From contig JADGJC010000193.1 in assembly GCA_027596075.1 (NCBI GenBank), positions 7,383 to 71,382 on the forward strand: a stretch of DNA of 64,000 nt. Reading direction: 5' to 3'. The translations under genes and the position numbers were made by a program. The notes under the pieces were generated by a model that was not told the origin of the DNA, searched no databases, and saw nothing but the letters and a program-made list of their open reading frames with translations. Shown here piece by piece: positions 24,645-53,480 of this stretch (its first letter is position 1; the number at the start of each line of letters is the position of its first letter). This DNA comes from Rhizophlyctis rosea. Lineage: Eukaryota > Chytridiomycota > Chytridiomycetes > Rhizophlyctidales > Rhizophlyctidaceae.

Positions 24645-27600
24645 TCAGCGACGTCCTCTCCCATGACCCTTAGCTACAGTTCCGTCCCGCAACTTCCTAA
24701 GCCGCCTAACTGGTCCAATTCCCGTCAGGGTGTTCGCAGGATTTCCGCTTCCGTCGTCACTGTCGCTACTTACCCCACTTGAACTTCCGAAAGATGGGAT
24801 AGGACCCATCCCGCCCGCAACACGCCTCCCATCCCCTCCACTCATTCCAAGACCTTGCGCTGGAGTCGACTGTCCCTGCATCGGACCTTGTGCCCCTCCA
24901 ACCCCACCACCTCCACTCAACCCCACCATCCCCCCACTCCCATTCCCAATCCCCAACCCCAACTGTGGCACATTGCTACCGCAACTGCCGCCCCATTGCA
25001 GCAGAGGCTTGCGCCAATCCCATCTGCACCCCGTTTTTGAAAGCGAATTCCTCAGTGCTTTGCAACTGCTGTGCAAAGTTGTCTGACGATTGTTGTGCAG
25101 AAGCGGTGGTGGCGGCATGTGCTTGCTGTTCCTAAATAGGTTGAACAAGCAATATCAGTATGGTGGGAAGCGGGCAAATGCATGTACTCCCAACATGCTG
25201 GCACAACATCCTTCAATCCTCCCTCAATAACTCACTTGATTATATGCAACCTGCAAGTTCTGCACCTGCTTCAACAACTGCTTCTTCTCCTCCTCCAACT
25301 TCCTCGCCTTCGCATCCAATTGAATAGTCTGACCTTCCCACCTATCGGACCCGGCCTAATTTCAACCCAAAATCAGAGCAGAATCAGGAGATTTTGAAAA
25401 AATCAAACACATACTTGAACCTCTTGCAAGCATCGATGGACATCCGACGCATCCCGCTCCTTAGCCAAGGACTCTAAAGCGGATTCCAGGCGGTCCTTCG
25501 TTTCGTTCAACTCCGTAAGTAGCCGCTTGTTCTCGGCAGTCAACTTCCGTACTCTTTGATCGGCTTCATCGACCAATTTCTGATGACGGAGGATGTAATC
25601 TAGCACAGTGGCAGCGGGCAAGTCATCATCCTAATTGATGATGGTACGATCAGGACATCTGATCAAACAGGGCAATGACAATCGCGGGCGTGATTACCGG
25701 GTATTTAGAGTTCTTGTTCCGCCGGAAAATATTCTCACAAGAATTCTTGAAAATGATGTTAGCAAAGTCAAGACAAAATCTAACAACAGCTTATTGCATA
25801 CCCAATAAAAAGCCTCATTTTCTGCTACCGACTTTTCGCGAGCTGCATTGGTTTCCGCGACTTTCACTTGCATTTCCGCCGTCTTGATGTCCGCCTGTTA
25901 CGACCATAAATCAGGTTTCGGAGAATGCAAAAAACTTCGGTTCCGAGAACTCACTTCATTCTTAGCAGCAGCAGCGACCGCATCCCGTTCAGCAGATAGC
26001 TTCTTAGCTTCCTGTAAATATCATGAGTTGCATGGAACATCCAAAAAAGATGACAACATTGTATACCTTCTCCCTTGCAAGCAATGTAGGCCTCAACGAA
26101 AGCGGTGTGATATTATACAAAACCGTGAAAGCGCTCTCCGAAGATTCGTTTCGAGCAAATAGAGTAGAGACTCTACCGCCAGCCTCGACTGCAGGGACCA
26201 AGCATCAGTGCCGTGTTCCTGAGCACAAAATGTTTTCGAGTGTGTCATTACCAAGCAACTTGACCCCAAGCTGGTACTCTGATCAATATGTTCAGTTAGC
26301 AAAAGGTTACTTATGAATGATTGGCAGTGGACATACCTCGTACATCCTTCGCTGGTGTGAAGAAGATGATATGCTGCACCAGTTTCAATCTGCAAAATAC
26401 CACATGAATCAGCTGCATACGGCCAGAAACCCGAAGTCTATCTCAGCATACTTCTTGGGCGGCAACACTGTCACAGTTCCCAATCTGTTCAACAAAAGTT
26501 AAGAACTGTCGTCCACCTCCAATGAACAAAGTATTTCACATACGTGACAGTTCGCTTCTTCGTTTCTTCTTTCTCTGCGCTCTTTCCCTTCCCTCCCTTC
26601 CCCTCCCCTTCATCCTTCCTAAACACACCCTCCGCATCAAATGCCCCAACCCGAAAGCCATTTCCCACCAAAAAGGGCATCAACATGTTCGCGGCTTCGG
26701 CATCAGCAAGGATGACAACGGTATGTACGACCGGGTTATCTTGCAGCAATTGGAGGAGCTTGACATCTCGTTCAGGTGCGTCAACGCTCACAACCTGAAA
26801 AGACACCTAAGGAACGGAGCAAACAACAAACATGGTCTCACACTCACGACATGCAAAATCCGGCCTAGTTGTGTCATGTTCTCCTCTTCTTTCTCCATCG
26901 CGCTCCTTCCAAAAACTCCCGCTAGGCCACCCGTCACAGTTTTGGCAAAGTTGCCAATGGTCTTGCTTATGGAGCCACGGCGAGCGGGAGCAGTCTCCTT
27001 CTGTCCAGAATGACTGATGAGGTGGGCATTTTGTGCGGCTTCGATGTCTTCAACTGTGGAACGATATCAGATATGGCAGCACAACAATGTCACATTGCCA
27101 ACTAGACAGTGGACAGTCATGAAAAATGCAAAGTAATGGCAAACTAACGTGTAATGGATGCAGAAGCCCGGCGCGCCATACACTTCGACCTCGTCAACGT
27201 CTTCAATACCGCATTCGGTACACCCTTCAGAACAACAAACCACAACTCCTGATCGGCGGCAGTTTACTGGTACAGATTGTCCGGACCACTTGACACCGCT
27301 CTTCCTCCAACGCCTGCAAAATCTCGGCCAACTTCTCGTCACTAGAATGAAAAACGATTCCATATGCCCACTGCATTGGGTGACAGTTCATATATAAGCC
27401 ATCACATCATCAAACGAAATTCTCATTGATATTCATACCTCATCCTTCACGAACTCAGCCTCCTCCTTTGCCACCCACGGTAAACTGTTATACACATCCA
27501 GCATCTCATCGCTCTTCCCGCCTCCCCTCAGGCGTCCGCACAAGTAAATTGTAGATTCGGGCAAAATATCGTAATCTGCGGAAGATGGTGTGTGACGACG

Positions 27601-27869
27601 AGCTGTCAACGGTGCCATAACTCGCCCAACCTACAAGCTAGGGTGCAATTCCCGGCCAAGATCTTCCCTCCCTTTCTAAGATACATTCCATCATCATCTA
27701 CAGCACACTTCTGCAGCACCTTCCACAGCAATGCAGACACTTTATCCTCAGGTCGAACTTCAACAAGAATCGTTTTGCCGGTAAGAGTCTTGACGAAGAT
27801 TTGCATTGATGCATCTTTGGTCCGGGTTCTCAACATCTCCGCCGCCGCATCCTGAGATTCGTCGTTGCC
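24645..27869 (-). CDS. ubiquitin-like/coiled-coil family protein, copy 1 (block 1)
   Basis: Exon 27869-27635 plus exon 27575-27439 encode a full ubiquitin fold: MQIFVKTLTGKT at the start, TLAYYDILPESTIYL near the end, then GRLRGGG. The GG is followed by KSDEMLDVYNSLPW, so it is a fusion, not a free modifier. Further exons toward 24645 carry the shared modules: ERCQVVRTIC ... FVVLKGVP ... ARRASASIT (27.15-27.3 kb), ARRGSISKTIGNFAK (26.9 kb), RDVKLLQLLQDN (26.75 kb), GVKLLGND (26.25 kb), PAATVLDYILRHQKL (25.6 kb) with coiled coils, and a Gly-rich tail ending VRRLRKLRDG...GHGRGRR. A one-base shift separates the halves of the KGxP module near 27,256. Upstream, phase-0 splicing joins it to an SMC3 piece. 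Function is unknown. Confidence 0.6.
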
Positions 27870-27928
27870 CTGTGGTGGAAGGTAAGACACATGCCTGAAA
27901 CGAAGCCCGGTAGAGGGGCAAGACTCAC

Positions 27929-28534
27929 CCCAACTGTTCTCCTCAACATAAGCAATCGCCCACGGCCAGCCGGGACGAGCCTCTCCCAAACTTCCTCAAA
28001 AAATTGTGCCACCTGCTTGAAAGTCCCCGAAATCACTTCGTCTTTCCGCTGATCCAAATTCTTGATCAGATCTTCAATCGCCTACGATTTCGCGAGTCAG
28101 GGGCCACACAGAGGGTTGTACTTCTGTGATATGCACGACGTGATTTGACTGACCTCAGCGGCATTGTCCAACTCTTCCTTCCTGGCGTCCAGCTCGCCAC
28201 GCTGCTTGGTGAAGTTCTGGTACTGCTCGAAAGCCTGCTTGTTGACATGGCTGTACTTCTTCAAAGCCTCCTTGACATTGTGCAACCTGTTAGAAAGCTG
28301 AAAATGGATGGATGTTCAGCACGGTGTCAAGTTTGATGAACCGAACCCAGCCCATACCTGATGGTATGACGGATTCTGATATTCCCTTAAAGCTTCTTCT
28401 GGCAGCAGTCCCATCTCCCGAATGCTCTTCAGCGCTTCCTCCTTTTGTTGGAGGTATGCCGTCGTCTTCAAATGATATCTCTCCATTGCGCGCTGTTCCG
28501 CTTCCATCTCTTTGTGTTGGTTGATTTGTTCAGT
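27929..28534 (-). pseudogene. SMC3 C-terminal fragment fused to ubiquitin-like copy 1
   Basis: Three collinear exons (28534-28358, 28297-28154, 28081-27929) match the distal coiled coil and start of the C-terminal ATPase lobe of cohesin subunit SMC3: IREMGLLPEEAL, LKKYSHVNKQAFEQYQNFTK, LDQRKDEVISGTFKQV and ERLVPAGRGRL. The ABC signature and Walker B that should follow are absent. Instead the last exon ends TVG and splices (GTGAGT...CCACAG) at phase 0 to GNDESQD and then the ubiquitin fold. The N-terminal two thirds of SMC3 are also absent. The piece is open in frame, so it may be expressed as part of a chimera, but it cannot be a working SMC3. Confidence 0.75.
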
Positions 28535-28540
28535 CTAAAC

Positions 28541-29691
28541 TCAAACATCAGAAACCGTCCTTGAAATTGCCTCCGAAATCGACTTCAAACATACCCGCGC
28601 CCTTTTGAGACGTACGACTTCAAACGCATCATCGACACGGCGACGATGGAACGCAATGTTGTTGCTGATTTGTGTGGTTTTGTCCACTTTTTGGCAGTCG
28701 TGGCCGTGTTGGTCGGTAGCCACTTGGTCCATCAAGAGTTTCAGTTTAGCGGTGCTGAAGATGATGCGGTAGCATTCGCCGGTGGCTAGGAATTTGGAAT
28801 GGCAAGGGGAGGTGGCGAGGAAGTTGCGTTCGAGTCGCATGAGACCTTCGCGGAGGAGATGGAGGTCCGCGTTCAGGGCTGGAGAGCAGAGCGATGATGT
28901 CACCAAGGCGCCAGCTGCCCGTATGATTGCCGGCTTGGAATCTTGGCGCGCACATGCGGAGGGTGATGCGGAGCAAGGTAATGAACATGAAGAGTTCGGC
29001 GTCGTACTGTAGAGTGAACTTTATTAAACAAAGAATAACCTCAATTCAACGTGGCGATAGCTTACCTGATACTTGTGCCTGTGCCTAGTCTGCGGAACTG
29101 CATGAAACCCATACACCCTACGAAGCCTCTTGTTCGCCTCAAGCCACGTGTCCTTCTTGGTGCATCTGTCGAAGGAAGCCCTCGCATTCTCCAAATCATC
29201 CAATTCAAGGTAGTACAATCCCATGCAGAACGCGAATGATCCGTAACGGGACGTTTGGACTTTCAGCTCTTCGCATTCTGAGAGGTAGTGAATGACGTGA
29301 CGCAGCTGATCGGCACGGGTAAGAGTAACGCCTGTAGGCACATGGGGCTGGGTCATGAAGGCGCGGACCACGAGCGCGTTGAAGCAGAATGTGTTGCGAC
29401 AGTTGATTTCTGGGTCGCTAAGGAGTTCGAGACTGGCTGAGGGAGCAGAGGACCGAGTGGCTTCATGACCCTGCCATGCCGGTCTGTGACTGGTGGAAGC
29501 GGGTTGGGTCTGTTCGCCTGTATGCTGAGCAAATCTTCCGTGCTTTGGAATCTTGACCTACGATGACGCCAAAGGTTGTCAGCTTTGCAAGACTGGTCAA
29601 TTATGCACCCCAACCTACCTTTGAGCAGCAGTTCCGAAAACGAGCGAGCTTTTTGCACGTCGAAAGAAGATTTCCCTTGTCTCTGCGTCAC
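28541..29691 (-). pseudogene. helical protein fragment of unknown family upstream of the SMC3 piece
   Basis: Open blocks read in one direction: LRHVIHYLSECEELK and FCMGLYYLELDDLENARASFDRC (TPR-like), then FMFITLLRITLRM after an intron near 29.0 kb. At about 28.89 kb the frame shifts to LNADLHLLREGLMRLERNF and STAKLKLLMDQV. TPR or PCI-type helices are suggested, but I cannot name the parent gene. It lies 5' of the SMC3 piece and could be its first exons in the chimera or a separate broken gene. Confidence 0.35.
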
Positions 29692-29989
29692 AACAGTCTC
29701 CTACTAGACATATGATGTCAAACGGTAACACCGCCATAACGTGAATGTCCCGCTGTGAACAATATGGGAGGTTGGATGGGACACGATCGTGGGAAAGGGT
29801 TTGCGCTCCTTGGGTGGGTTTTGGGGATATGGCAAGCTCAGTTTAACTTGATGGGAATTTCCAATTTAACCAATTACGGTATACTCCGATTCTGTGACTC
29901 ATACCACATCACCGGGTTTGACCAATGTCCCTTGCTGAATGAGCAGCTGCTCATCCCACCAATCCTCTTCCCTTCTTTTTCCTACTCGT

Positions 29990-30640
29990 CGACTTCGCAC
30001 TCCCACTCTTTCTGGCAAGCCAGCATCAACCTCAACTGCAACAACACCTGAAGCGCCAGACGCCGACAAATGCGACTTTGGACTATACGCCGTCGGGAGT
30101 GTCTTGGTGAGTCGGTTCAAACCCCAAACGTGATACTACTAACCCAGCAGAAGACGGGTGGGACCTCATAATGAACACCGCCTTTTTGGCGGCTGGACGC
30201 TATACCGACTGCTACGGCAGGTTCGATAGGTTGCTTCCTCCAGGAAGCCATTATGGAAGAGCTAGTCCCGTCTACTCTGCTGTGTCCGGCGCTGCGGTGG
30301 AGGTGGATGCTCTGACGGATGGTGTGTGGCTCCAGTCGAAATCCCACCTTTTTGTGTGAAGAACTCCAGGCTCCTAGCATGACTGTGTCATGGGGAGGTC
30401 TTATGGAACTGGGCTCAGGCTTTCTGGAAACTCCCGCATATACACCGTCCTGAAGACGCCACCGAAGTTGCAGCTGCCGGGCACGCTTTTTGGGTCGTGA
30501 AAACGACACCATCACTATAGGGTCCATATTCAAGACAATTCGCTTCATGTATCAAGGTCTATGTATAGCTTCTAGTGTTTGTGCTATAAATGTCATGTAT
30601 AGAGTAGTTCGTGCGCTGTATGCGGCGTCGTATTTGTATA
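29990..30640 (+). ncRNA. hairpin cassette A (block 1)
   Basis: A transcribed-looking unit with a pyrimidine-rich start, a short intron (GTGAGT at about 30106 to CAG at about 30150 with TACTACTAAC as branch site) and a second exon that aligns with three other cassettes. Conserved hairpins: CCGCC-TTTTT-GGCGG (30178-30192), a T-run loop at about 30350, CATGAC-TGT-GTCATG (30378-30392), GTCGT-GAAA-ACGAC (30494-30507, a GNRA loop) and CGCTG-TATG-CGGCG (30614-30627). The end is rich in TGTATAG words like a 3' end. Frames inside are not shared among copies, so a structured RNA is more likely than a protein. Confidence 0.5.
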
Positions 30641-30904
30641 GCTAGTCCAAATTAGACTTCGTTTGTAGGGCGCTGTGTTGGGTGGTTGGATTGGTAGTAG
30701 CTTCCGTTGGACCCATTACCACATGTGCATGAAGAGATGGCTTACTTTGCACGAACGAACAGCGTTCGCCATTATCACCTCATCCGTACATACTCATCAT
30801 GCTTCGCTTTGTAAAGTTATACATCATTGTTCACATCCCACTGATTATTGTCCACGGGTCACAATCATTACTACACATCTATGTCAAATCTACTCTCACA
30901 CGTA

Positions 30905-32304
30905 ATGTCCTATCGGGAAGAAAGTAACACCAATGTCTGTCACTCGCAAATTCTCTTCCACGTCCTCTCCAGCTCCTGATCCAGTCCCCGTCCGCAACGC
31001 ACAAGTCCTGGCCAGTTGCTTCTGCTTTCCGAGGCTCGAACTCATCAGCGTCATGTTGGTTATGAGTGGATTCAATCCTTCACATTTGCAGCGTTCGTCT
31101 TCTTGGCAGTCACAGAAAACCAAGCGGAATGTCCACATGCATAATAATCCTGAAACTTCAATTTACAATCTTTCTTCCTACTTTGTAGTGCACCCCGACC
31201 CAGAAATGCATTTGACCTGCTGCTGCTGGATAGGTTGATGGCCATGGTGGTGTGGTCGAGAAGATTGGTGTGGTATTATGTCATATGTTGCTGAACGGTT
31301 GCGGTGCGTACGGAGAATTCGATGGCGCGGACTTGCGGCTTACTACCACAGTCGCAGCATGGAAGCTCGACCTGATCTTTGCCGGGGAGGGCACGTCAGC
31401 ATGTGTAATACGGGACAGTGCACAGCCCTCTGGGAGCGTTCGCGGGGCATTGATTCTGCATTCTGAGCAAACGAAAGCGGGCGCGAGAGGACGCCTTCGG
31501 ACTTTTGACGTGGCAGGTGGGTTCAGTTCTGCTTCGGTTGGGCGACGCTGTACTGGTCGTGGACTTGTTAAACGAGGAAGAGGGGGTCATCCTCTTCGGT
31601 TCTACGTTCGCAATCTTTGTCGCTCGCGCTGCGCTTGGCTGCTGCAGGCGATTGGGTGTAGGAACTCCTGTCATCGATGGGTGTGGAGGGAGGTGACTCC
31701 ATTGACACACAGAGTCGGCGCGATTGCTGTCGTTTAGGGACTTTGGTGGGAATGGCACGCGTGGAGGGAGCTCGGAGGTTGGCGTTAGCAAGGGAGTAGT
31801 CTGTTGATTTGACCATTTTAGTTGGAATATACACTTGCTAGTTACTCGTGCACTGCGACAGGTTACCCGATCACATAGATTTGCAAGGAAACGAACCCAT
31901 TGGCTCGGTTGCACCTTTGGCGTCACCAGAATCCCATTAGTCTTGACCAAATCTGCCAACCAAGAAACAGGCCTTCGCATGCGGGGAGACTTCGGTGCAG
32001 GACCCGAAGCAGGATCATTCATCCACGGCTTGGGAACCTGCATTGACGTGATGGCGACTGAATGGCGCTTTGACGATTCGCGAGAGAGGGATGGCTGAGG
32101 CTGGAACTGAATTGATGCAAATGAGCTCTTTCCTTCCATGCCGGAGTTGACGTGCGTGACATTCTTGCAGGACTTGACTGCCATTCCGGACGGGATGGTG
32201 GTGCCGGGGAGCGAAGCTTTGTCGCGCGGGTATGGGAGTTCGAAGGGGTTTCGGGAGCGAGCAAGTGTACCCATGTTGGTGGTTGACCTTGAAGGCCTTG
32301 TCAA
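30905..32304 (-). CDS. doubtful gene, Ser/Pro-rich and Cys-rich segments
   Basis: A 302-residue frame at 31396-32304 is rich in Ser, Pro, Arg and Lys (RSRNPFELPYPRDKA, RRPVSWLADLVKTNGIL). Near 30905-31140 there is a Cys-containing frame (CDCQEDERCKCEG) that could be a last exon. The two may belong to one spliced gene, but I could not fix the junctions, and open frames exist on the plus strand as well. No family is recognised. It lies between block 1 and block 2, where the other block boundaries have no extra gene. Confidence 0.25.
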
Positions 32305-33326
32305 TGAACGTGTCCGGTCGACTTCAGTGTGGTGAAAATGTCAAACGTATCAATACATGCTTTTGCAACAAAATTAGACATATGCTCCCCAAAGCAACAA
32401 GAACAACGCTTCCCTGGATGTCCATAGGTGCAAACAAGAACGTATAACGTATACAAAGCAATTGCTTACCTCACAACTGCGCAAGATTGTAAGAGAAGAG
32501 GTAGTATCGAGCAGTACAATGGAATATCTCAACGGAGGTTCGAGACTTGAGACTTCGAACTTGGGACAAGACGGAAGACTAGGGAAAAAGTCTCAAGTCA
32601 AAACCGCGATTATATAGCCGTTTTGCTGTGTCGAGTAAGGCTATGTGAAAGAATTCAAAAACTGAAGAAACACACTGCGTCAATATTTTCAAGGATCTCG
32701 CGGAGTAGCAAACGTCGACGGTGGCGACCTCACCCCTAATAGTCGATTCGCCTCGCGAACAATTATCTGCACTTGGCGTTCCAGTTGTGTGTACTTCTCG
32801 TCCAGATTTCGATGAACCTGTCACTGTGTCAACTGTAATTAGTTTATTGCCCGCTTGCGCACACCATCTGAGTTCGTTTCCTGTACCTTCTCATAAATAC
32901 CGATACCCAATACGCAGTCGAGTTTCTTTCAGCGCTGCAGATTTTGTCAGGAAGTTCCGTAAAGACGACATCGTAGGAAGTGCGGGAACAATGTGCGTGT
33001 GATCGCAAAAGCGGCTGGGTGGGGAGCTGAGGAGCCTGAGGAGAGCCTGAGGTGAGCTGCGGCGTGTGGGCCTTCACATGGCAAGGGTCCTACAAGAATT
33101 TAGCTAGAAATTGGACGACGGTGCAGCCACAGCCACGCGGGGCTTAGCAGGAGCTTGCATCTACTGCAGATAGTTGGCCATAGCCCGCCATTATCAAAAA
33201 AACAACTCATGGATAGAACGCCTCCATGCAACCATTACCAACAGATCCTGCACATTTACTGATGATTGCTCTTGCTGTGACATTGACTGCGCGACTAACC
33301 CCCAGCTATACCTGATACTACCCTCC

Positions 33327-36300
33327 TCAACGTCCCCCTCCCCTTCCATGCCCCCTAAGAATCCGCCCATCCCTCCCTTTCCGACTCCGCCTAACTGGTG
33401 CCACAACAACAGAAGGACCCGCAGCTGCTCCCCCACCATCATCACTGTCCGCCCCACCGGAATCTGTCCCGGAGACATATGAGGCAGATGGCGGCATTAT
33501 GCCGCTCGGACCACCATGCTTCACGTTCATTGGTCCTGTCGTTCCCACAAGGCCCCCGGCTGGCAGTGCAGTAGTAGCAGCACCACCACCACCCCCCCTC
33601 CCATCCATCGCCCCACCCCCTCCACCCCAACCCAATCCCATTTTGGAACCCACTCATCTGACCCGCCCCACCAACATCAAACACCCCACTACTACCACTA
33701 CCTCCCCTCCCGACCTCCAACCCTTGCTGGAAAGCATTCGCCTCCACGCCCTTCATCTGTTCCCCAACACCAGATAAAACAGATTTCGCAAACTCCTGCG
33801 CCTGTATGAGAAGCAACAGTGATCAGGAAAGTTCTGTAGTAGGTGGATCTACACCTCTCCCTCACAAGTGACAAAATCTCCACACAATCCATTACGCCCC
33901 ACACCACACAAGTACATCAAACACGAATGGAAACTCACACCAACAAGCTGCGACTGGGCTTGCTGTAACTCCGTCACCAACCTCCGGTTCTCCGCTTGCG
34001 AATCATTCACCTTCGCATTGCTCACATGGATCTCCTGCTGCATTTCAAAGCAAAGTTAGATCAGGGGGATTGGCACTGAACAAAATATGCACTTGCCTGC
34101 TTTTCCGAAAGCAGCTTTCTCAAATCCGATCCGTCGTACTCAGCACTCAACTCCTCATGAGCAACGTCGAGTGAAACCTTCAGTTGTTCTATCTCCTTGA
34201 CGAGGTCGGCGTTGCGGGATTTGAGCGTAAAGTTCTCGCGGCCTAGATATCAAGAATCAATGCCAGAACAAACAAAACGCGGTTGACCATCAATAAACAA
34301 ACCTTTACGTTTGCTCTCCGCTTCCGCATCTTCAACTGCTTTCTCATGCCTTCCTAAGTAGTCGATAATGGCAGTGGCGGGAACTTCCGTACCCTGATTC
34401 GCACGGATGATTGCAATCAGAAAAGATGTATTGAACATGGAACTGCTGCCAAATATATGCCTACCGGATTTGCGGAGAGTTCGTTACGGCGGCAGGAACA
34501 CGTGACGGAGTCCTAAAGAACGCATCAGTACAATCCAAACAGTTTGATGATCTCTTTTCCACCATACCCAGTAGAACTTCTCCTTAGCCTCCAAAGTCTT
34601 CGCCCTCGCCGAATGCGTCTCAGCCGCTCGCATTGCTTCTTGCTCTCCCTTCTCTTCCTTCTAAACAGATCAGCGAATTGAGCATTTGTCTCCAAGATTT
34701 CGGATTCTTCGAAGAGATCACATACCGCTGCTCGGATAGTTGCAGAAAGGTCTGCGCGCTCAGTTGCAAGGCGTTTGGCTTCCTGTAATACTTGTGAGCC
34801 TTTGTAACTCAAATGACAAATCGATTTGATCAACATACGGTTTCCCTAGACATTAAATGCGGGCGGAGACACAGAGGCGTGGTAGCAGCGAGAAGTACGA
34901 AAGCCATTTCCGGAGAATCTTCCGCACAGAAAAAGGTCGAAACTCTTCCCCCACTGCTCCCTGTTGCATTCAGCCAGTCAGCATATTATCTTCATTGGAA
35001 GTCAGCAACCCGAGCAAACATGGCATCATTACCAAGTAGCTTGCCACCCGTCTCATAATCTAAAAGGATGACAAATTAGAGAACTGATGGGCCAGACAAA
35101 AGCGTGAGCGAACTGAACACACCTCGCACGGTCAACGGCGTGGAATAGAAGATGACTTGATCGACACTGCCGAGCCTACGAGAGATATGCAAAATCAGCT
35201 GACAGGATCGTTTAGCCTGATTACCATCGCCTTCTTACTTTTGTGCCGCAAGCGTGCGAATCACTCCTAGCCTATATAAAAATCAATAAGTCTGAAACAC
35301 CACTAAAGAATGAATGTGCAGATGAACTTACATGACAGACAACTTCTTCGGGTCATCGGCTTGCTTCCCCTTCTCACTCTTCTCCCTCTTCTCCCTTCCA
35401 GAAAACTCTCCCTGTTCATCAAAAAGTCCGACTCGGTAACCGTTTTCCAGGAGGAATGGCATCAGTCCCCTTGCAACAGAGACCATGGACCACCACAACA
35501 GAATGTGGCAAAGGATGTTGCTGAAGAAGCTGGAGGAGGGATACGTCCTTTTCCACGGGATTGACTTTCATAACCTGATCACAAACCATAAGAAACAGAA
35601 GGAAGTTCAAGCAGTGTTTGAACGCACATGATGGGAGATAACACCAATCATCGAAACTTCATCGTGGACGGGTTTCTTCACATCGTCCTTTCCGAAAAAT
35701 GCCTGAAGTCCACCCTTAATGGTGCCCGCCAGCTCTTCCAAGGACTTTCCGATCGACCTGCGACGACGTAGAGATGAACCGTTATCTTGTGCGCCGGCCG
35801 ATACATGTGATTCGTATGCTTGCTCAAGATCTTGCACTATTGAATGAAATCAGATATGGATGCACAACAAATGGACCGTGCCAACTGGACATTGGTCAAT
35901 CATCATTAAAGCAACATGGTGAACTAACATGTGATGGTAGGCAATGCCCGCCGTGCTCGACATCCTTGACTCGTAAGAACGGCCATAACATGTTTGGGCT
36001 GTCCTTTTACTATCAGGAACATGATGTAGTGACTCGGTGGTACAGGCATCGAGCAAATCATGTTGGAGATTTGGCAGCGGTTGTCTTGTAAACATCCTTG
36101 AATTGCAACTCCTTGTTCTTCAGAACCGGTCCAAACCACGCCATACACCCACTGATGAATACGTGGGTAAGCAATGGTGGTTCAAATCGAATGGCATGAT
36201 ATTGATCCAACCTCGCCCTTCTCTTCCTCCCTCTCCTTATCACTAATCCACGGAAGAGCCTTGTACATATCCAAGATGGTATCAGCTTTATTTCCTCCTC

Positions 36301-37620: not shown

Positions 37621-37755
37621 GAAGAAGATGTCTCCCTTCATGAGTTGCCAGAGGTAGCTCTACGTGTGTGTGTTGGTTCCTTTATTAGACCTTGTATGCA
37701 TAAGCATCCCATTCGGGCCATCGCCCTACACGTACCCTGATGAGCTGAGGTGTCT
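37459..37755. repeat. internal duplication inside the CDK1 fragment
   Basis: About 105-115 bp occur twice (about 37459-37565 and 37641-37755): ATGAGTTGCCAGAGGTAGCT through CCCTGATGAGCTGAGGTG. They carry the end of the exon coding APQLIR, an intron, and the start of the next exon. The copies differ at several positions, so the duplication is not an assembly stutter of identical reads. Confidence 0.75.
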
Positions 37756-39010: not shown

Positions 39011-39029
39011 ACCACTAGGATTCATGCAT

Positions 39030-42854: not shown

Positions 42855-42913
42855 CTGCAGAGTATTGTCAAAAAGCCTGGACACGATAGTATAACAAGCG
42901 AATATGGACAAAC

Positions 42914-43553
42914 CGTGGCACTTGGAACGCCCTCGCGAACTGTATCTTTGACAATCTCGATGGTGTCTTCGACACCCATTTTGAGGCGTTCTTCTTCCGC
43001 TTTGGCGAAGTCTGTCGCAGTGGCCGCCGCTTGTCTTGCGCTTTCGAGTTTTTCCTTCGAGTAGTCTTTGACGCGACCGTATTCTTCCTTTGCTTTTGCG
43101 GGAATGCGACGGAGGTTGTTCATCGTGTCAGATGCCTGCAACTGCGTTAGTCTTGAAATGGGATCCGGAACGATTACGCACAATTCTTCTCACCTTGCCC
43201 TTCACTTGATCAGCATCCTCAATCCCATCTCCCAACTCATGCCCCTCCCCGTCCCAAGCTTCTCCGAGCTTGTCCGCCACATAGTGCCCTTCCCGTTTGA
43301 TGCCATCCTTCCATTCCTCCGCATTGCGCTCGATACCTTCCTTCCATTCTTCTCCCGTACGCTCGATGCCCTCCTTCCACTCATGTCCCTCTCGTTTGAT
43401 GCCATCTTTCCATTCTGCCGCTTTGTCCTTGCCATATCTGTGCATGTTTCTGAAGCCGTTCTGCCCGTTTGGTTGGTCGAGGTAAAGGTGGTCTTTGCCA
43501 TGCCCATCGTCAAAAAGGTGCTTGTGAACGTGTTCGTAAACAGTGCGAACAGT
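42914..43553 (-). CDS. 11-residue-repeat amphipathic module (LEA-like), part of block 3 cargo
   Basis: Two exons joined at phase 0. The first contains four 11-residue repeats of the form WK(D/E)GI(K/E)Rxxxx (WKDGIKREGHE, WKEGIERTGEE, WKEGIERNAEE, WKDGIKREGHY). Eleven-residue amphipathic repeats are typical of LEA and lipid-binding proteins. The second is a charged helix (YGRVKDYSKEKLESARQAA). Upstream the frame is open to an acceptor at 43553 that fits phase 0 after the Clf1-like exon, through VRTVYEHVHKHLF. Downstream it ends VPSAT and splices to the ubiquitin fold of copy 3. It may be a separate captured gene or the tail of the Clf1-like gene. Confidence 0.5.
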
Positions 43554-43635
43554 CTAATGCATGATGCCCAAGATGAGTTGCATTACTCTTACAAAAGAAA
43601 CTCCGGAAACCCATGCACCACCTCAATGAACTCAC

Positions 43636-45294
43636 CTCAGCATGCGCCGTCCTCTCCAACAACCTCTCATACAATTTCCTCACCCTCTTCCACTCCCCCT
43701 CCCCAACCTCAAAATCAATATACCCCCTCCAAAGCACCTCCGGCATATCTAACACCTCCTGTCCAACCGCAATCTCAAACAACCCCCTCGCCCTCTCCGA
43801 ATCCCCAAGCATACTTTCAAGCTCCGCGTACTTAATCCACCCGTACACGCTGCCACTGTAACAAGAAAGATATTTCTGATACAGAACGCGCACACGATCA
43901 AACTCGCGAAGTTGGAGTTCAAGCTCAATGTATCCTTGGAACAGCTTTTCTGTCGGGCAGAGACCGAGGGCTTGGTCGAGGAGTGTGCGGGCTGCGGTGA
44001 GGTCTTTTTGGCGGATGAGGAATTTGGCGTAGAGGAGCCAGAGTTTGTCGAAGGTGAAGGTTTCGTGGGGAATGAGTTTGAGGGCTTGGGCGTAGACTTT
44101 TTTCGTGCGGGTATAGTCCTAATTAACAAAGTTTGTGAATGTCATGCCCAAGTACATTCATAAGAAACCCGTTCCAAACACAAACGGTACATACCTTAGC
44201 CTGCGTCTCCTCCCAAATAGCGTAACGAATCCACAAATAAATATACCGCCGCCAAAACCGCTTCTCATTCACCGGCGGAACCTGCGCAATCGCCTGTTCG
44301 TACAAGTCCCGGATCTTCTCCGTGTTTCCCATCAATCCCTCCAAGCGAGCATAGTCAAACCAAATGTCGTAGTTCTTCGGGTTATTTGCAAGCTCCTAAA
44401 ACCATCATATGTCAGTCTCCGCTGGACGATTCTACGATGCTCTCTTTCCTCGAATACCCACATCCTCATACTTGACCCTCCTCTTCCCCACCACAACATC
44501 CTCAATCCCCTCCTTAGCGCCGTACTGTTTCTCGAACTGTGTGTAGACGTTGTACAGGTTTTCCGCTTGTCCCTTTGGTAGTTTCTCGCGCGCATATTTG
44601 AAGATGAAGCGGGCGCGCTCAAGCTCCTTCTGCCGAGTTTCGAAGCGGGCGAATGACACGTATATGTTTTGATCGATGAACTCGTCGCCTAGCGTTTTTA
44701 TGCATTGCTGGTAGATCTCTCGTGCGTTGTCTGTGTTATGGGTTACATGGCGTCAGGGTGGGAATCTTCCCCCACGCAACTTTGCCTTGCGTCATGGGCA
44801 AACAGAAGTTGTTTTCACATACCAATGCGAGCAACAGATTCCTCAAACTTTGCCCATTCTAACCAGTTCTTCGGCTGTGGATGAACATTGACGAATCTCC
44901 GATAAATCTCTCGCGCGCGGTCCGTCTCGTGATATCTCTTCTCAAACTTGATGTATGCCGCCCACGCCTCCTCGCTTGCTTCCCACTTCATCCATCGTTC
45001 AAACACTTGGCGCGGTCCAGCCGCATTGTCCAGCAACTCTTCCATATAGATGTATTTGAACCAGAACACATCCACGCGCGGCAGGATCGAGACGGCTCGA
45101 TCGAAGATGTTTCGTGCCCGGTTGATGTTTTTGTGTTTCATTTCCATCTCGGCGTAGCGGAGCCAGAGGGCCTGGTTGAAGGGCTCAACAATTATCGACC
45201 TTTCAAACGAAGCTCTGGATAAAGTAAAAGAGATCGAGAAGCTATCAGTCACTTACAAAGCTCGGTACAGGACATATACATCATTGTCATCCAT
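43636..45294 (-). CDS. Clf1/crooked-neck HAT-repeat protein lacking its N-terminal repeats
   Basis: Five exons (45294-45257, 45214-44823, 44730-44462, 44395-44195, 44118-43636) keep frame through 461 codons. The HAT repeats are those of splicing factor Clf1/CRNKL1: [75 protein letters not shown] and [14 protein letters not shown]. The parent joins the Prp19-associated spliceosome complex. Here the first two or so HATs are missing, replaced by a 13-codon exon ([12 protein letters not shown]). The last exon stops being Clf1-like after [13 protein letters not shown] and continues into the 11-residue-repeat module. Intact frame over four introns argues against simple decay. It directly follows the Rpn7-like gene. 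Confidence 0.7.
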
Positions 45295-45377
45295 ATGTGT
45301 TCCCTCTCCCATCTCTAATCAACCTTCCAGATTCCCATAAATGTCATTAATGAATCCGGTTGAAAGTCTCTGGCCAC

Positions 45378-47140
45378 CTACCTCTTTACATGGATATCTG
45401 CCCCAGCTTGCAATAACAACTCCACGATTTCCGGATACCCGGCGATGGACATCTTCACCAGCAGAACCCCTCCAACCCGCGTAGGCGCCGCAGCTGACAG
45501 GTAAGTCACGAATGCATCAAATTGACCATCCGCCAAATACGCCATCAACTCCCTGCGAATATGGTAAATAAGGTATTTTGCCGCCAAGTTTCAGGCGTGT
45601 TTCATTACCGATCAACAACATCCGACGGAAGACGCTTAGACTCAGAAACCCGACTAATCACTTTTGGCCAAAGAGTACGCAAAAGATTCTTGTATACCGT
45701 GACGCGCATCTCGCCGACGTAATAGCGGTAGTGAGCGTTGAGGCGGTGGTCGAGTTTGATTGTTTGTTGGACGGCGGCTGAATTGTGTGCAAAATCAGTC
45801 TTTTGTCTGGCAGGATATGATTGCGTGCATGATCCTCAGTATTTTACCTAGCGATTTGATGAATTGGGCATATTGGCAGTTGTAGTAGGAGTTGGCGAAA
45901 AGCTCCATGTCGGGGATGTCGGAGATTACTTCCAGGATTTCGGGTGCGTTGAGGACCTGCAGGCATTTTGGCGTCCAGCGTCATGATTAACTTCCATAAT
46001 GCCGCATCATGGCAATGAATGACATACCTTAGATTTGAAATCTGGTCGGGACAACGTGAGCGCACCAGTCAAGACGGTGTACTTTACGAAATCCTTGTAC
46101 TCCATGAGCTCCGTTGACGTGAACGTCGCCAGCGTCTCCAGAAGTTGGTTGATGGCTCCCTTGAAGTTTCGGATAGAGATCAGGTAGATGCCCTCGTACA
46201 CTTTTAGCCGATTCCGCCGGTCCCAGTCGCCACCCTCTTCGATCAATCTGCATTCCAACCAATGTCATAAACTCTGCTGTCTAGGCGACCACAATCGAGA
46301 TCAATACGCACGTTTTTGCCTTCTCAATGCTCCTGCTAATCAAATCGTTGTCCCGGAAAAAGAATCCAATCCGAATCGAAGCGAACACCAAGTCGATTCT
46401 GTGTCCGAGCGGTCCCGTCTTGTCAAACGCGACCCGATATGCGCTGACCGCCTTCTGCTGAGTATCCAAACATCAGGATCTATCGTCATCAGCTGCACTG
46501 GTTTCCGTTCACACCTTATCTCCAATTTGACTCAAATACTGCGCTTTAGCGATAAGAGCATCGCTGATATCCGTCTCGCCCAAATTCTTCTGCGCATTCT
46601 CGAGTTTATTCTCCAGTCTCTTCAGCTCCTCCTCGTTTGCCGTCCGCATTTTGTTCACTAGGTCGTTGTCTTGTGGGAAACCGAACTGTTGCGTGATTTG
46701 TTGGTAGTATGGTGTCATGCCTAATGGGTATTGTTGCTTTGAGCATGCCGTCCGACAACTATGACTCCACGAGTTCCTTCAGAATAACGAGGCCTCAGAG
46801 ACTCACTGTGTGCGGCGATTGCTTCAAAAAGCTTCACCTTTGCCTCCTCATGCAGGTGTTCCGGACCTGCCTCGAGAATGAATTGATATCGCGGCAAGGC
46901 CAAGTTGGGCTGGCGAAGTTGTGTGAGGATTGTATGTGAGCGCTCAACAACTAGCCAGCTAATGTAGAACATCCACAAGAGCAACCTATAGACAGTCCTT
47001 ACCATCGTGCAATCGTTATATGAACAAATCTTACGAGAACCTTCACCATCACCCACTTCACTTTGCACCAACCGACGCGCAGTCGCCGCATCGGTGTACC
47101 GAGTTATCCTCCTCAGGATTTCCGGTGGAATCACTGGCAT
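45378..47140 (-). CDS. 26S proteasome Rpn7/PSMD6-like protein with altered ends
   Basis: Eight exons (47140-47003, 46909-46807, 46720-46515, 46454-46312, 46247-46028, 45956-45848, 45777-45609, 45552-45378) give 420 residues with every junction in frame. The core is Rpn7: [97 protein letters not shown] and [10 protein letters not shown]. Known role: a PCI subunit of the proteasome lid. Two oddities: exon 1 ([18 protein letters not shown]) looks like an F-box start, and after [11 protein letters not shown] the usual lid-assembly tail is replaced by an ankyrin-like [20 protein letters not shown]. Whether it replaces or duplicates the true Rpn7 cannot be seen here. Confidence 0.75.
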
Positions 47141-47439
47141 CTTGTAGCAAACATTTTACGTTCGATGTACAAGGGTTGTTGCAGATGCGTTGGGACTGAG
47201 AATTGTACGATGGGCTGACCCTGGGGCTGGCCAAGTTGCTTTGGGTATTTTTGGGGCGTGGGACAGGCCTGGCGTGCTATGCAGACCAGTCTAACCTCTT
47301 TTGGGGCAAATGTTGTGGCTTCCAAAAGAGATTAAATTGCGCTGTTCACGTGTGTGGCTGATGAAGGCTTGAAAGGCTTGGGAATGTTCTTCACCAAATA
47401 TACCTGCCCTCCGCACTTTGTTCTCCCAGTTCTCTCCTT

Positions 47440-48140
47440 TCCTTCGTTCGATCTCGCCATCGACTTCCGACCTCACCATCTGTCCACATGCGAAGTCTCG
47501 ACAACCACATCATCACCAACCACAACTACAACAACAGAAAGGAACATGTGGGCTTCGGCGACTCGATTGATACTTGGATACCTCAGATGAGTGCTTCGTT
47601 TCTGCATTTACATTCTAACTCAAGCGCGGGTGGGGCCCTGATATGAACACTGCCTTTTTGGCACGTGGATACTTTGGAGTGCTTTGGTTTCAACGCCAAA
47701 GCAGTTGCGTCCTTAGGTCGTTCCTTCGGGAGCCATATTGGAATGTCTAATCCCGGCTTCGGTGTGCACAAGGCCCAGCTGTGGGTGAATGTTCGGACGA
47801 GGATAGGCGGCTCCATTATGAACACCACCTTTTTGGTGCAAGTGAGACTCCCGGGTTTCTCGTTTGACTATGTCAAGCGGGAGGGTCCCTTGAAGTTTGT
47901 CTTCGGCCATGTGGATCATCTGTGTACGCCTCTGAAGACTTCGCGATAACTGCAGCTGCGGTCGCTGTGCATGCCACTCTTACTTTCCCTGGGTCGTCAA
48001 CGACGACACCAAACAAACAGATTCGGTCCTTCGATCAAGACCCCTCGCCTCATGTATCAAGGCCCATGTATAGCTTCTAGTGTTGATGTACTATAATTTA
48101 TGTATAGATTAGTCGCGCTGTATGCAGCGTCGTATTGTAT
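47440..48140 (+). ncRNA. hairpin cassette C (block 3)
   Basis: It is divergent from the Rpn7-like gene. An intron ends at TCTAACTCAAG near 47621. Second-exon hairpins: TGCC-TTTTT-GGCA (47651-47663), CACC-TTTTT-GGTG (47826-47838), CGTTTGAC-TAT-GTCAAGCG (47861-47879, same place as CATGAC-TGT-GTCATG of cassette A), GTCGT-CAACG-ACGAC (47993-48007) and CGCTG-TATG-CAGCG (48116-48129). The last 90 bp are nearly identical to cassette D. Confidence 0.5.
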
Positions 48141-48310
48141 AGCTTAGGTGTGGGCAGGTGGAAACGTGGGGATCGGTGGGGACGTGGGGACGGTGGGAAC
48201 TTGGGGATGACGGGATTTTGGAAGGGTGGGATCTTGGCGGCGGGGATGTTAGGGAGGCGGGATCTTTGCCCGTGAGGAACTAGGAGGGGAATAGCATTCG
48301 TCGTCAAAAT
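48140..48310 (+). repeat. G-rich minisatellite, second copy
   Basis: GTGGGGACGTGGGGACGGTGG-type words follow cassette C and precede the end of copy 4. Both this and the 39.0-39.2 kb copy end in AATAGCATTCGTC, showing that the whole junction was duplicated. Confidence 0.6.
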
Positions 48311-48548: not shown

Positions 48549-51500
48549 CTACCCCTTTTTCAACCCACTACTACCCGAAGCACCCCCGAATGAAGATCCC
48601 GCACCCGACCCAAAGACAAATACATTGTTTGGAGCGGCCCCACTCCCACTGCTGCTACCCCCACCACCACTCCCACCACTCCCTCCACCATCGACACTAC
48701 CCTTCCCCTTACTAACGACCCCAATGGAGCTTGCGGCAGCAGGCGGAGCTTGCGTTACTGCAGGCGGAGGAGCAGGCGCAGCATCAACCTCCATCTCAAC
48801 ACTCTCGCCCCCCGTATCACCCACATCCATCATCGCCATCCCACCACTTCCATCCGACCCTCCACTCCCACTACCCCCACTCAACCCCACCCCAAATCCC
48901 CCCAAATCCGCGATGTCCATCCCCCCACTCCCAACCCCAGCACCCAACCCGACACCCAACCCAACACCCAACCCCCTAAAGTCTACAAATAGCCCAGAAC
49001 CTTCAAACCCCCCGATTGCGCAATAAGCAACAGCCAAGTACTTACGTCACTCAAAGCCTGCGCAAGCTCCTTGATGCGCTGATCCCGTCTCCTAATCTCA
49101 TCCTCCAAATCCGAAATGCGTTGATCCTGCTGTTTCTTCTCCGCCTCCAAATTATCCGCCCGAACCTGTTTTCAATCAGTGTCTTAATACACAATCTTCG
49201 CAACCCTATCTTCTCACAAAGGTTTACCTTTTGTTCCTCGCGATCCTTTCGCTCCTGTGACGCAAAGCTTTCTCTAATGAACTGCGGCTCCAATTGATCC
49301 AGCTCGCGCCCCCGATCTTCATATTTCTGCGTCACACGATCCAAATCTTTCGATAATTGGTGGATCTTCACATCTGAAGTGCACGGGTCAGTGATACCAT
49401 CCGTGATGAATGATTGAACCAATGCCAACCTTTTTCGCGCAGGTTTCGTTCAAACCTGCCCTTCTCTTCCGCTCCGGCCTTCTTTATGCGTCCGATGTAA
49501 CCGATAACGTCGCGGGCGGCAAGCGTTGCTCCCTACAGGGTTGGGCATAAGTGCGAAGGTCAAAAGAGTAAATGACCACACAGGAATGCATACCGGGTTG
49601 GAACTGTTTCCGTTGGTTCTGAAGCAGTTCTCTGTGTGATCCTGATCAAGACAATAAGACAAGAGCTTAAAAAAGGATTGCAGTAAACGATGTAACTTAC
49701 GAAGAACATCTTCTCGCCCGAATCCATCGACTCGCTCAAAGCGGTGCATGTCTTTTCAGCAAGACTTTCCTCCTGCAAAATATGCATCAATAAACTGACG
49801 GAAGTCTGATGCGTTTCTTTCCATTGGAGATTTACCGTCTTCCGCACAGCCTTCACCCTGTCCTCCTCCTCATGCTTCAGCTTCCGCCGTTCCTTCTTAA
49901 CCGCATCAGCATCCTGAGAAGGATAAGTTGAATAGCAGAACCAATCTGTCAAGATCCAGCAACGTTACCTGCTCAAACTTCTCAACAAGAGGTTTCAGAC
50001 ACGGAGGCACGACACTAATCATCAGAGAAGACGCGTAAAGTCCATCAGTCTCCTCACAAAACAATGTCGTGACACTTCCCGAATGGTGATCTACAAAACA
50101 CAACGGCCGTGAGCATGAATCAGCCTCAATCAATACTATGAAACGAAAAAATCATTACCCAGCAACATTGTACATTTCTGGTATGCTGACGAATGCAAAG
50201 AGTGTCAACCAGGCACGTATATAAATCCCAGACGTGGAGCAGTGCCCTTACCGGCCAGAGTTTTTGGCACATGATACAAGACTACATGTGCTACATCCGA
50301 GACCCTTGAAGGAAAGATATATCAGTCAACGAGGACTTTACGCAGCGAGTCGTGTAAGGTGTGGCAAGTTACCGATGCTGCACAGCATTGTCGAAACTCC
50401 CAACACTGCTCAACCAAAATTAGTGTGAGTCTCCAAGGCTGACAGGTTCTTGGTAAACTTACACCACGTGCCTAAGCGCATCCAACACACCCTTCCTCTT
50501 CCCACTCTTACCCTTCCTTCCCTGCGACTCCTTGTTCTCATTGTTGGAATCTTCACCACAAAGGCGGACCACGAAATCATGTTGGAGAAGGAATTGCTGC
50601 AGGGACATGGCTGTGGAGTGGTCCATGGCGATTACGAGCGTTGTTGGAGCAGCAACAGCCTGTAACACTTTCAGGAGGCCAATGTCTCGTTTATTCGCGT
50701 GTACCTCCTCGACCTGCTTCTGTCATCAATCATAGAGCACACCTCATTGGAACATAAGTGCTTACACTGTGAACAATATCCCCAATTCCAACCATCCCAC
50801 CACCGTCCTTTTGGGGATCCTTGTCCTGCATCAACATCCCCAACCCCCCCTTAACTCCACCCAAAAGTGAGTCTTTGATGCTGCCAAAGGCTCGTGTGAT
50901 CGAATTGCGTCGCCCCATGGTGCTTCGATCAGGTGGCGCCAGTACCAATTCAGCAAAATCGACGTCTACGGCGTCGATTTCCATTTCTGAGTGTTGGAGA
51001 TCCATCAGCATTCAACAAACAGCAAGCATGATTCACCAGCTAAGCAGTGGACAATCATAAAACATAAAGTCAAAGGAGACACGAACTTGTAATACTGTTA
51101 GGTCCTCTCCGATGATGATACTTGTGCTTCGTCAATACATAATGTATTCGTCGTGGTACACCTTTGATTTGTACAAAGACAATCTGCAGGTTTGACGGAA
51201 TCTCATAGGTGACAACGATATTCCCGATACGACCGCCCGCTTGTTCTGCGATGCAGCCACATAATGCAGCAATGTTCTCATCGCCAGCCAGGCACACGAC
51301 GCCATAAGTGAACTAGGTTGGGATGTTAGCTTCTGCATTCTGATTGGACAAACAAACCCGCTATAGTGCTCTTACATCCCCGATATCATCAACGCCCGCC
51401 TCGTCCATCCACAGTGCATTGTATTGATCCAGTACTAATTCTTGTCGGCTTTCGGGTGTTCCACCGAGAAGATATGTAGACATGTGGATAGTACCACAAG

Positions 51501-51867
51501 GATGAATCTTGCACTCTAGTCAATAACGTGAGCCGACCTCCAAACATATTTAGTGATGGAAACCTATTTACTTGCCTTCCAATGTGAGGTCCGATTGGAG
51601 GCGTCGGCCAGCGTACGTAAAAAATTGATCATTTGGACGGACACCAGTACGCATATGTATTATCTCCATGATGCTTTGCACCGTTTCAGAACTTCCCGCC
51701 GATATGACTATGGTCTTGCCGTCCAAAGTTTTCACCAAATACTGATGTCGATTTTGAATTTGTGAACAAAGAGCGACAGTTGGTACCTCCGTTCTACGCG
51801 CGTGGGAAGTGCACAATGCTGGAACACCAACCTGACTATCGTGCCTGTGACTTTTTTCATGGCTATT
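48549..51867 (-). CDS. ubiquitin-like/coiled-coil family protein, copy 4 (block 4)
   Basis: The ubiquitin fold starts QYLVKTLDGKTIVI (51.74 kb), with FFTYAGRRLQSDLTLEGK, and after an intron ends CGTIHMSTYLLGGT, then LVLDQYNALWMDE. Modules follow in family order: FVQIKGVPRRIHYVL ... RRGPNSIT (51.1-51.2 kb), MGRRNSITRAFGSIKDS (50.9 kb), KRDIGLLKVLQAV (50.67 kb), TMLLGND (50.15 kb), LAARDVIGYIRRIKK (49.5 kb), coiled coils (DLEDEIRRRDQRIKEL) and a Gly/Ser-rich tail ending GLKKG with stop at 48549. I see no frameshift in the modules checked, so this is the best candidate for an intact copy. The first exon (from about 51867, NSHEKSHRHDSQ) follows a phase-0 intron from the Rpn7/Clf1 chimera. Confidence 0.6.
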
Positions 51868-51950
51868 CTGTTGACGAGTACCAGGTTGCTGTACGATGAC
51901 TGGATCAGAGGATGCGCTTTTGATTCCTTGCTGTCAAAAGGACCACAAAC

Positions 51951-52443
51951 CTTATCACAACTCGTCCTCTCCAACAACCTCTCATACAACTCCCTCCCCC
52001 TCCCCCACTCCCCCTCTCCAACCTCAAAATCAATATACCCCTTCCAAAGCACCTCCGGCATCTGCAATACCTCCTGTCCAACCGCAATCTCAAACACACC
52101 CTTCGCTCTCTCAGTATCCCCAAGCATCCTCTCAAGGTCCGCGTACTTGATCCACACGTAGACGTTTTGCATCGGCGGCCGAAACAAGGATACCACGTAC
52201 GTCTTGGCCTTCTCAATGTTCCTGCTAATCAAATTGTTGTCCCGGAAAAAGAATCCAATCCGAATCGAAGCAAACACCAAATCGATTCTGTGTCCGAGCG
52301 GTCCCGTCTTGTCAAACGCGACCCGATATGCACTGACTGCCTTTTCCTAAAAATCCAAACATCAGCTTCTACCGGTATCAGCTGCACTCGTATCCGTTCA
52401 CACCTTATCCTCAATCTGACTCAAATACTGTGCTTTGGCGATC
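51951..52443 (-). pseudogene. Rpn7/Clf1 chimeric fragment fused to ubiquitin-like copy 4
   Basis: An exon piece [14 protein letters not shown], then an exon starting at 52346: [20 protein letters not shown] through FFRDNNLISRNIEKAKT are Rpn7. The same exon continues without a break into Clf1 HAT sequence: VYVWIKYADLERMLGDTERA, MPEVLWKGYIDFEV and [13 protein letters not shown]. Both parts closely resemble the adjacent Rpn7-like and Clf1-like genes of block 3, so this is a shortened copy of that gene pair with about 2.5 kb deleted between them. It then splices in frame to copy 4. Confidence 0.8.
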
Positions 52444-52799
52444 AGACAACTTAGAGCCTTGGCTGTCAACCGATTGCAACGGTGGACTTCCACCAGAGTT
52501 GCCATAGGTAGCCATCTTGCCAAAATCGGCAACACCTCAACGGGGAAAGGCAGCATCCAGTCCTATGCTACTGCTCGTCAATAGCCAGTTCGTAGATGTG
52601 CCAAATCCAACAGGTTGAGACGCAAGATGACTGCATGGGAATTTGGGAAGGCTCGGTGGACGGAGTCGCCAGGTGGCTGCGCACATATGACCAGAATCGT
52701 GCCCTGGGACTCGGCCCCAGGGTGTATGGTACCGGTCGGACTTGAATGTCCGATTATAGTGGCTTGAAACGCCATGCCAGCCATTTGGGCTGTGCCCCA

Positions 52800-53480
52800 T
52801 TTGTGGGTGGGAAGGCCAGCGCAACTCGCTCCCTCGCCTTCCGTCTCTCCTTCCCTTCTAATTTTCATCTCACCATCGCCTCACGACTACACCATTCGAC
52901 CATCGACTTCGGCCCATGGCGATGCACTCTCGGTAAGACTCTCGATTAATCCATCCATCCATCTAACTCAAAGCACAAGAGCGAGCGGGCCCTGGCGTGA
53001 ACACAACCTTTTTGGTTGTTGAATTGCGGACTGCCTACGGGTAGCTTTCGCCACTTCGCCCATTCCAATGGACCATGCCGGACTATCCGCTTGAGCTCTC
53101 TCTTGCCTGCTTGTGCACGATACTGTAGACTCGGTGAAACAATCTTCTTGCGGTGTGTGGCCCCGGCAGAACACCACCTTTTTGGTGTGTGAAATCCTGG
53201 CTCCTAGCATGGCTGTGTCATGGGGAGGTCTCAAGGAACTTTGCTACCGCGCCTGCCGGACGACCCATGTAATCCGCTTGCAAGACTTCATCGGCTTTTG
53301 CAGTGTTCGTGCACACAACCCCCTCCCACAATTACGGGTCGTCAACAACGACACCAGATTCTAGGTTTCCTTCGGTCAAGCCCCTCGCCTCATGTATCAA
53401 GGCCTATGTGTAGATTCTAGTGTTGATGTACTATAATTTATGTATAGATTAGTCCCGCTGTATGCAGCGTCGTATCTGTA
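52800..53480 (+). ncRNA. hairpin cassette D (block 4)
   Basis: An intron from GTAAGA (about 52933) to TCTAACTCAAAG (about 52975). Hairpins: CAACC-TTTTT-GGTTG (53004-53018), CACC-TTTTT-GGTG (53175-53187), CATGGC-TGT-GTCATG (53208-53222), GTCGT-CAACA-ACGAC (53338-53352) and CGCTG-TATG-CAGCG (53456-53469). The end matches cassette C almost base for base. Confidence 0.5.

Follow-up and report, generated by a model that had tools for sequence, protein, structure and literature searches.

How does a single locus come to carry a row of genes whose upstream parts are put together from pieces of other, unlinked genes of the same genome? The question is raised by four minus-strand blocks in a window of 64,000 nucleotides from the chytrid Rhizophlyctis rosea (bases 7383-71382 of contig C105, which is 77,644 bp long; the genome comprises 44.1 Mb in 634 contigs). 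Each block, read from 5' to 3', consists of a cassette, a cargo of host-gene fragments, a diverged ubiquitin-like domain (UBL) encoded by two exons and ending in a pair of glycines (GG), and a tail. The order and orientation are the same in all four, as a sequence-only reading of this DNA had proposed. It is probable, in our judgment, that gene fragments have been taken up here by an acceptor hub, with the copies kept as code by selection and the 5' halves exchanged between blocks.

Block 1 (24645-30648) contains the cassette, a MYND/TPR piece, an SMC3 piece, the UBL and the tail, and has been annotated as one protein, P0121. Blocks 2 (33330-38930) and 3 (39503-48144) were delimited by DNA self-comparison, Pfam and donor alignment, while block 4 (48552-53490) is annotated as P0122. 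The public annotation has fused single proteins at blocks 1 and 4, with the first named SMC3 and the second skipping the UBL exons; when P0121 and P0122 were modeled together, the mean predicted local distance difference test score (pLDDT) was 40. Two more patchworks of the same cluster, at 31-33 kb and 54-59 kb, had not been noted before.

Parents for the pieces were found by searching the same genome at both the protein and the DNA level, with the edges of the pieces placed by blastn; the DNA search for donors covered the window at 24-38.5, 47-48.4 and 53.5-64 kb. Over the four blocks and two patchworks, 19 donors were traced to 19 contigs; all are whole or partial genes at other places in the genome and are designated here by contig (C5, C620 and so on). 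For most donor segments the BLASTN E value is 0.0, so that chance is excluded, though for the donor families C431/C624, C127/C242 and C162/C78 the exact member is uncertain. The pieces run from about 50 to 1450 bp and differ from their donors by 6-29% at the DNA level. An assembly or amplification artefact, in which unrelated reads have been joined, is a highly improbable source of such a pattern: there is a single assembly, whose raw reads were not seen, but the DNA differences are too large for misplaced donor reads, and both the sense order of the pieces and the cargo order common to blocks 3 and 4 speak against it.

In block 1, the 933-bp MYND/TPR piece (28617-29549; 86.9% to donor C5, with the name taken from a reading of the gene model) is followed after 6 bp by the 761-bp SMC3 piece (27850-28610; C620, 83.1%). 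Block 2 begins its cargo with a 527-bp coiled-coil piece (37752-38278; C621, 93.6%), then has a CDK1 C-lobe piece (36679-37752; C246, 78.5%) that shares base 37752 with it, and finally an 87-bp piece from C85 (36595-36681; 82.8%), after which comes the UBL. Within this block a CDK1 exon region is tandemly duplicated (37418-37752, the duplicate lying at 37607-37752 and 83% identical to its partner). Block 3 carries an RPN7 piece (45692-46909; C442, 87.6%), CLF1-like HAT repeats (43600-45252) for which no donor was found in the assembly, and an 11-mer coiled-coil piece (42927-43558; C123, 85.6%). In block 4 there are a shorter RPN7 piece (52195-52446; 89.7% to C442 and 89.3% to block 3) and a CLF1-like piece (51963-52164; 88.6% to block 3). 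Pfam and donor alignment thus agree with the cargo proposed earlier for each block -- SMC3; CDK1 and a coiled coil; Rpn7, Clf1 and the 11-mer module; an Rpn7/Clf1 chimera -- and add the MYND/TPR piece in block 1 and the C85 piece and internal CDK1 duplication in block 2. The further proposal, of an amplified locus that takes host-gene pieces onto a ubiquitin-like tail, is supported by the 19 same-genome donors and the two annotated chimeras. That the cargo consists of 5' parts of host genes did not hold up: the pieces of SMC3, CDK1, CSE1, VDAC, MYND, C621 and C123 come from internal or C-terminal regions, and true 5' parts are seen for RPN7 (from about residue 10) and for C90, start codon included. 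CLF1 is essential in yeast; no intact parent was found in the assembly, and the CLF1-like piece perhaps reflects a gap there or is perhaps the sole copy. A hybrid subgenome was also considered as the source of the cargo and is disfavored, since the genome, in a search that scored the best candidates, showed no further full-length SMC3, RPN7, MYND or C621.

The joints and the introns indicate how the pieces were copied. Among 16 donor introns in six segments, the 3' AG is kept in all 16 copies and the 5' GT in 15, the remaining one having changed to GC; the template was therefore DNA or unspliced sequence and not mature mRNA, and retroposition is ruled out. Of 11 joints inspected, eight have a gap of 0-6 bp or an overlap of 1-7 bp, two of the overlaps being 3-bp microhomologies, while at the other three 28, 42 and 47 bp are left unassigned; some joints beyond these 11 are looser, as with the 179 bp between the CSE1 and C617 pieces. 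Orientation was taken from searches blind to strand, because donors found by protein searches with sense models are by themselves a biased set. These DNA searches gave 16 donors, of which 12 are in sense and none in antisense orientation (judged from donor models, open frames and omega), with four that could not be oriented (C42, C238, C35 and C431/C624). Were orientation random, 12 out of 12 in sense would have a chance of 2.4e-4. We suggest that an old tandem gene family at this one locus, with its UBL, helicase-C remnant, coiled coil and glycine-rich tail, has received DNA copies of unlinked host-gene fragments, introns included, which would have become part of its 5' halves and of two neighboring genes, possibly by end joining or template switching. 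Selection would then have retained those sense copies that extend a translatable gene.

Capture at the DNA level, introns included, is also what a gene-capturing transposon of the Helitron or Pack-TIR type would produce, with the cassette as its end and the blocks as four tandem insertions, and the cassette is indeed a conserved element at one end of each block. The four copies, about 340-520 bp long, lie at 30135-30648, 38467-38930, 47626-48144 and 53150-53490 in blocks 1 to 4 and were recognized by DNA identity, which ranges from 71 to 87% between blocks (blocks 1-2, 73.0% over 477 columns; 1-4, 71.0% over 352; 1-3, 82.8% over 116; 3-4, 87.0% over 162). In our gene models the cassette sits upstream of the minus-strand start codons, the place for a promoter or 5' untranslated region. 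By eye, a hairpin and a CTAG or CTTAG near the cassette edge recall the marks of a Helitron, but the homology continues past the CTAG and the base that follows it varies. A whole-assembly search for the cassette, at the sensitivity used and with very common words skipped, found it in these four places on this one contig only, and the two extra patchworks have no cassette. Inverted repeats of at least 18 nt were looked for in the four block regions, and none lies at corresponding block ends; a weak 21-nt inverted pair (81%) is found outside block 1, at 24402-24422 and 30949-30969, with no counterpart at the other blocks, and is probably due to chance. The ten long open reading frames scanned gave no match to a transposase or reverse transcriptase family, and no antisense piece was found. 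The mobile element suggested as one possibility by the sequence-only reading is thus improbable as the origin of these blocks.

The sequence-only reading had taken the cassette for a divergent plus-strand transcript with a hairpin. The fold z-scores for blocks 1-4, from 60 shuffles each, are weak and uneven (plus strand: -2.1, 0.0, -1.4 and -2.8; minus strand: -2.5, -0.4, -1.4 and -0.6), and nothing in the window passes the threshold of any Rfam family, the block 1 region giving two weak small nucleolar RNA matches with E values of 0.8 and 4.3. A consensus fold of the four cassettes has some compensating pairs, in an alignment too shallow to decide. The hairpin RNA was dropped on these grounds.

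If the copies were held as parts of genes, their exons and introns should have aged differently, and they have. In seven donor-copy pairs there are 3 frame-breaking indels in 4065 exonic bp (0.74 per kb) versus 42 in 1085 noncoding bp (39 per kb), the RPN7 exons in this count reproducing P0001 exactly; substitutions in the same pairs amount to 7.3% in the copied exons versus 23.2% in the copied noncoding DNA. Had the half of the divergence that belongs to the copy been unconstrained, about 79 exonic frame breaks would be expected. The contrast in indels indicates that the copies were held as code. Ratios of nonsynonymous to synonymous substitution (dN/dS) are 0.14 for SMC3, 0.25 for CDK1, 0.28 for MYND, 0.35 for C621 and 0.11 for CSE1; for the two RPN7 copies they are 0.13 and 0.05 with an older exon model, and RPN7 has 0.11 with the chimera model. 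A neutral copy is rejected in 8 of 13 segments at an uncorrected P<0.05, most strongly for RPN7 (4e-15), SMC3 (2.5e-8) and CSE1 (5.6e-7); the 13 are those that remain of the 15 segments used for six-frame comparison when the CDK1 duplicate and C238 are left out. The model frame is free of stops in 13 of those 15 and has the lowest omega of the six frames in 12, a result that is partly circular because the models favor open frames. Most of the pieces look, from their sequence, as if they had long been kept as protein code.

Several observations weigh against such retention. RNA did not enter into the gene models, whose preference for open frames counts here too. The C123 piece has a dN/dS of 0.66 and a stop at its edge codon; neutrality is not rejected in five of the 13 segments (C617b, C621, C123, C128 and C42); there are stops in the model frames of C42 and C238; and in C123, C238 and C128 the model frame does not have the lowest omega. 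The fragments could also have been intact paralogs for a time before they were joined. The present sequence, moreover, has one or two lesions in each of blocks 1-3. Block 1 has frame breaks at about 28874, in the MYND/TPR piece (with one extra base relative to the donor), and at about 27243, in the tail; block 2 has them at about 36890, in the CDK1 piece (one base fewer than the donor), and at about 35480, in the tail, as well as a 2-bp change at 38177, near the likely start; the tail of block 3 has an in-frame TGA at 41760-41758. No lesion was seen in the exons examined from the tail of block 4, where the link from cargo to UBL needs an intron whose boundaries are not fixed. Such lesions reflect either recent failure of the genes, or splicing around the damage, as in the P0121 model of block 1, or errors. 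Together with the segments in which neutrality is not rejected, they are what would be expected of a graveyard, a place that attracts duplicated scraps, where the chimeras have no protein function and the signs of constraint come from the donors or from earlier intact paralogs. We regard this as unlikely, given that just 3 exonic frame breaks are seen where some 79 were expected, that none of the 12 oriented strand-blind matches is antisense, and that no other full-length copy of SMC3, RPN7, MYND or C621 was found among the best candidates scored. Retention as code by selection remains the reading that we prefer.

The part that the four blocks have in common, proposed earlier as a conserved 3' module running from a ubiquitin fold to a glycine-rich tail, is confirmed. 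Pfam family PF00240 (ubiquitin) is matched in all four, with E values of 3.3e-9, 9.6e-12, 5.9e-9 and 2.5e-8 for blocks 1-4, and the identities to the genome's own ubiquitin are 37/76, 34/76, 34/75 and 27/76. The domains lie at 27516-27806, 36292-36577, 42545-42836 and 51460-51747, on the minus strand, and their ends, read by eye, are RLRGG, RLRGG, RLLGG and YLLGG; for the last a GC-AG intron is proposed, and the ubiquitin fold itself is assigned by sequence. The tails that follow (24645-27515, 33330-36291, 39503-42544 and 48552-51459) are about 520 amino acids long, with pairwise protein identities of 27-39%, and have in order a DDX3-like helicase-C remnant, a long coiled coil and a glycine-rich end, the last two recognized by eye. 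Combined into one profile, the four tails match the C-lobe of DDX3X (2jgn, E 9.9e-7) and vasa. When the tails of blocks 1 and 4 were scanned singly, no helicase or DEAD-box family appeared up to an E value of 10, apart from a weak AAA_11 match, from which we take the lobe to be degenerate; helicase motif VI was not seen by eye in the tails. An HDA2/HDA3-like tail was considered and given up, as Pfam gave it no support and the DDX3-like lobe was found instead. Searched against the protein database, with 8000 candidates scored, the tail had no match with an E value of at most 0.01, and with wider length limits the two matches among 7998 candidates were P0121 and P0122, that is, blocks 1 and 4 themselves. 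Three kb of the block 1 tail, used as a DNA query, matched only itself in the genome.

The two ends of blocks 3 and 4 differ in age. Their cassettes are 87% and their cargo 89% identical in DNA, whereas their tails have 28% protein identity over 472 amino acids and a single DNA match, 69% over 226 columns. A young 5' half thus stands on two old 3' modules, which implies that 5' halves move; cassette and cargo together would pass from one old 3' module to another. Something can also be said of the time of capture. A second R. rosea RPN7 protein, 89% identical and on another contig, is taken to come from another isolate, which is seen through its proteins only. At informative residues the RPN7 copies side with the present lineage over that protein by 28:0 and 6:0, with two sites of the block 3 copy fitting neither, so that the capture is placed after the split between the two R. 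rosea lineages.

The likely product would be a protein in the order cargo, UBL, GG and tail. Donor alignments show the catalytic units of the cargo to be incomplete -- CDK1 is without its N-lobe and SMC3 without its head -- so that a role in binding, competing or tagging fits better than an enzymatic one. We propose tentatively, as the last step, that the cargo may dock on the partners of its parent protein, with the UBL and its GG serving for recognition by the proteasome, for cleavage after GG, or for both. Cleavage after the GG is possible in principle, and decoy or targeting fusions are possible. More speculative is a standing cargo-swap locus, with ongoing sense capture from essential genes onto the shared UBL tail, behind the common 5' cassette, and swapping of 5' halves, whose lineage-specific, host-mimicking fusions might bind or tag essential complexes as decoys, degradation adaptors or agents of killing or self-recognition.

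The patchwork beyond block 4, at 53811-59194 on the minus strand, has no UBL and contains at least eight donor pieces: CSE1 (C228, 58250-59194), C617 twice (57970-58070 and 57872-57972), C42 (56444-57865), C127 (56098-56450), C238 (55660-56050), VDAC (C128, 54989-55617), C511 (54626-54988) and C162 (54138-54218). The last we take to be ARF-like, and its orientation depends on the ARF motif. The patchwork between blocks 1 and 2 (31017-32831, also minus strand) is made up of pieces from C35 (32745-32831), C90 (32139-32640), C173 (31286-32110) and C431/C624 (31017-31292); the C90 piece retains its 5' end and start codon and is in frame with C173. Elsewhere in the window, a TPR gene (3285-5357) has a minisatellite of TACTAAC-type units (1819-2452) upstream of it, two diverged tandem paralogs with no family assigned are found by blastn on the minus strand at 12575-15714, and 61104-61832 has a weak match to the C-5 cytosine methylases (PF00145, E 2.7e-4, below the cut-off) that looks DNMT2-like by eye.

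Fusion genes have usually been studied as single old events, while here about six chimeras with 19 traced donors are found in one 35-kb stretch. With parents, introns, joints and signals of selection side by side, the origin and retention of sense, in-frame fusions become testable, as does the idea that a genome might favor certain sites for them; it is unusual for variable cargo to sit on one common ubiquitin-like tail, an arrangement that points to a concrete biochemical test. No such locus was found in a search of the open-access full-text literature, though several known systems share parts of its organization. In primate core duplicons, mosaics of donor segments surround a fast-evolving gene family and give rise to chimeric genes, with pieces that are usually far longer. 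The R. rosea locus is likewise a mosaic of abutting copies from unlinked donors with chimeric genes, as in the primate duplication hubs, for example NPIP (PMC12790995). It differs from them in that the pieces are of about 50-1450 bp, none was found in antisense, several are in frame in one gene, and the genome is a compact chytrid one. What marks it as a hub is that copies from 19 unlinked donors abut at one acceptor locus, with 8 of the 11 inspected joints within 7 bp. Among transposons, Helitrons capture genes at the DNA level. Pack-TIR and Pack-MULE elements do so with gene fragments and form chimeric coding units (PMC8277862). The R. rosea locus has the same DNA-level fragment copies and chimeric coding units; unlike all of these elements, it is a single locus at which no shared terminal inverted repeats, dispersed cassette copies or antisense pieces were found. 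Sdic of Drosophila, a fusion of portions of different genes that is repeated in tandem, is also a set of tandem chimeras, but in R. rosea each unit carries a different cargo. The integrated decoys of plant immune receptors combine a shared scaffold with variable host-derived domains, as is the case here; the R. rosea scaffold is ubiquitin-like and coiled-coil, with no receptor domain, and its decoy role is putative. Ubiquitin fusion precursors such as the ubiquitin-ribosomal proteins have a ubiquitin fold ending in GG and then a C-terminal extension, an arrangement that recurs in these blocks, where the UBL is diverged and the cargo lies on its N-terminal side. In structure, then, the locus resembles the primate mosaic duplication hubs and in outcome it resembles gene capture by transposons, a Helitron origin not being favored, and we class it as a hub for the capture of gene fragments, new in its form.

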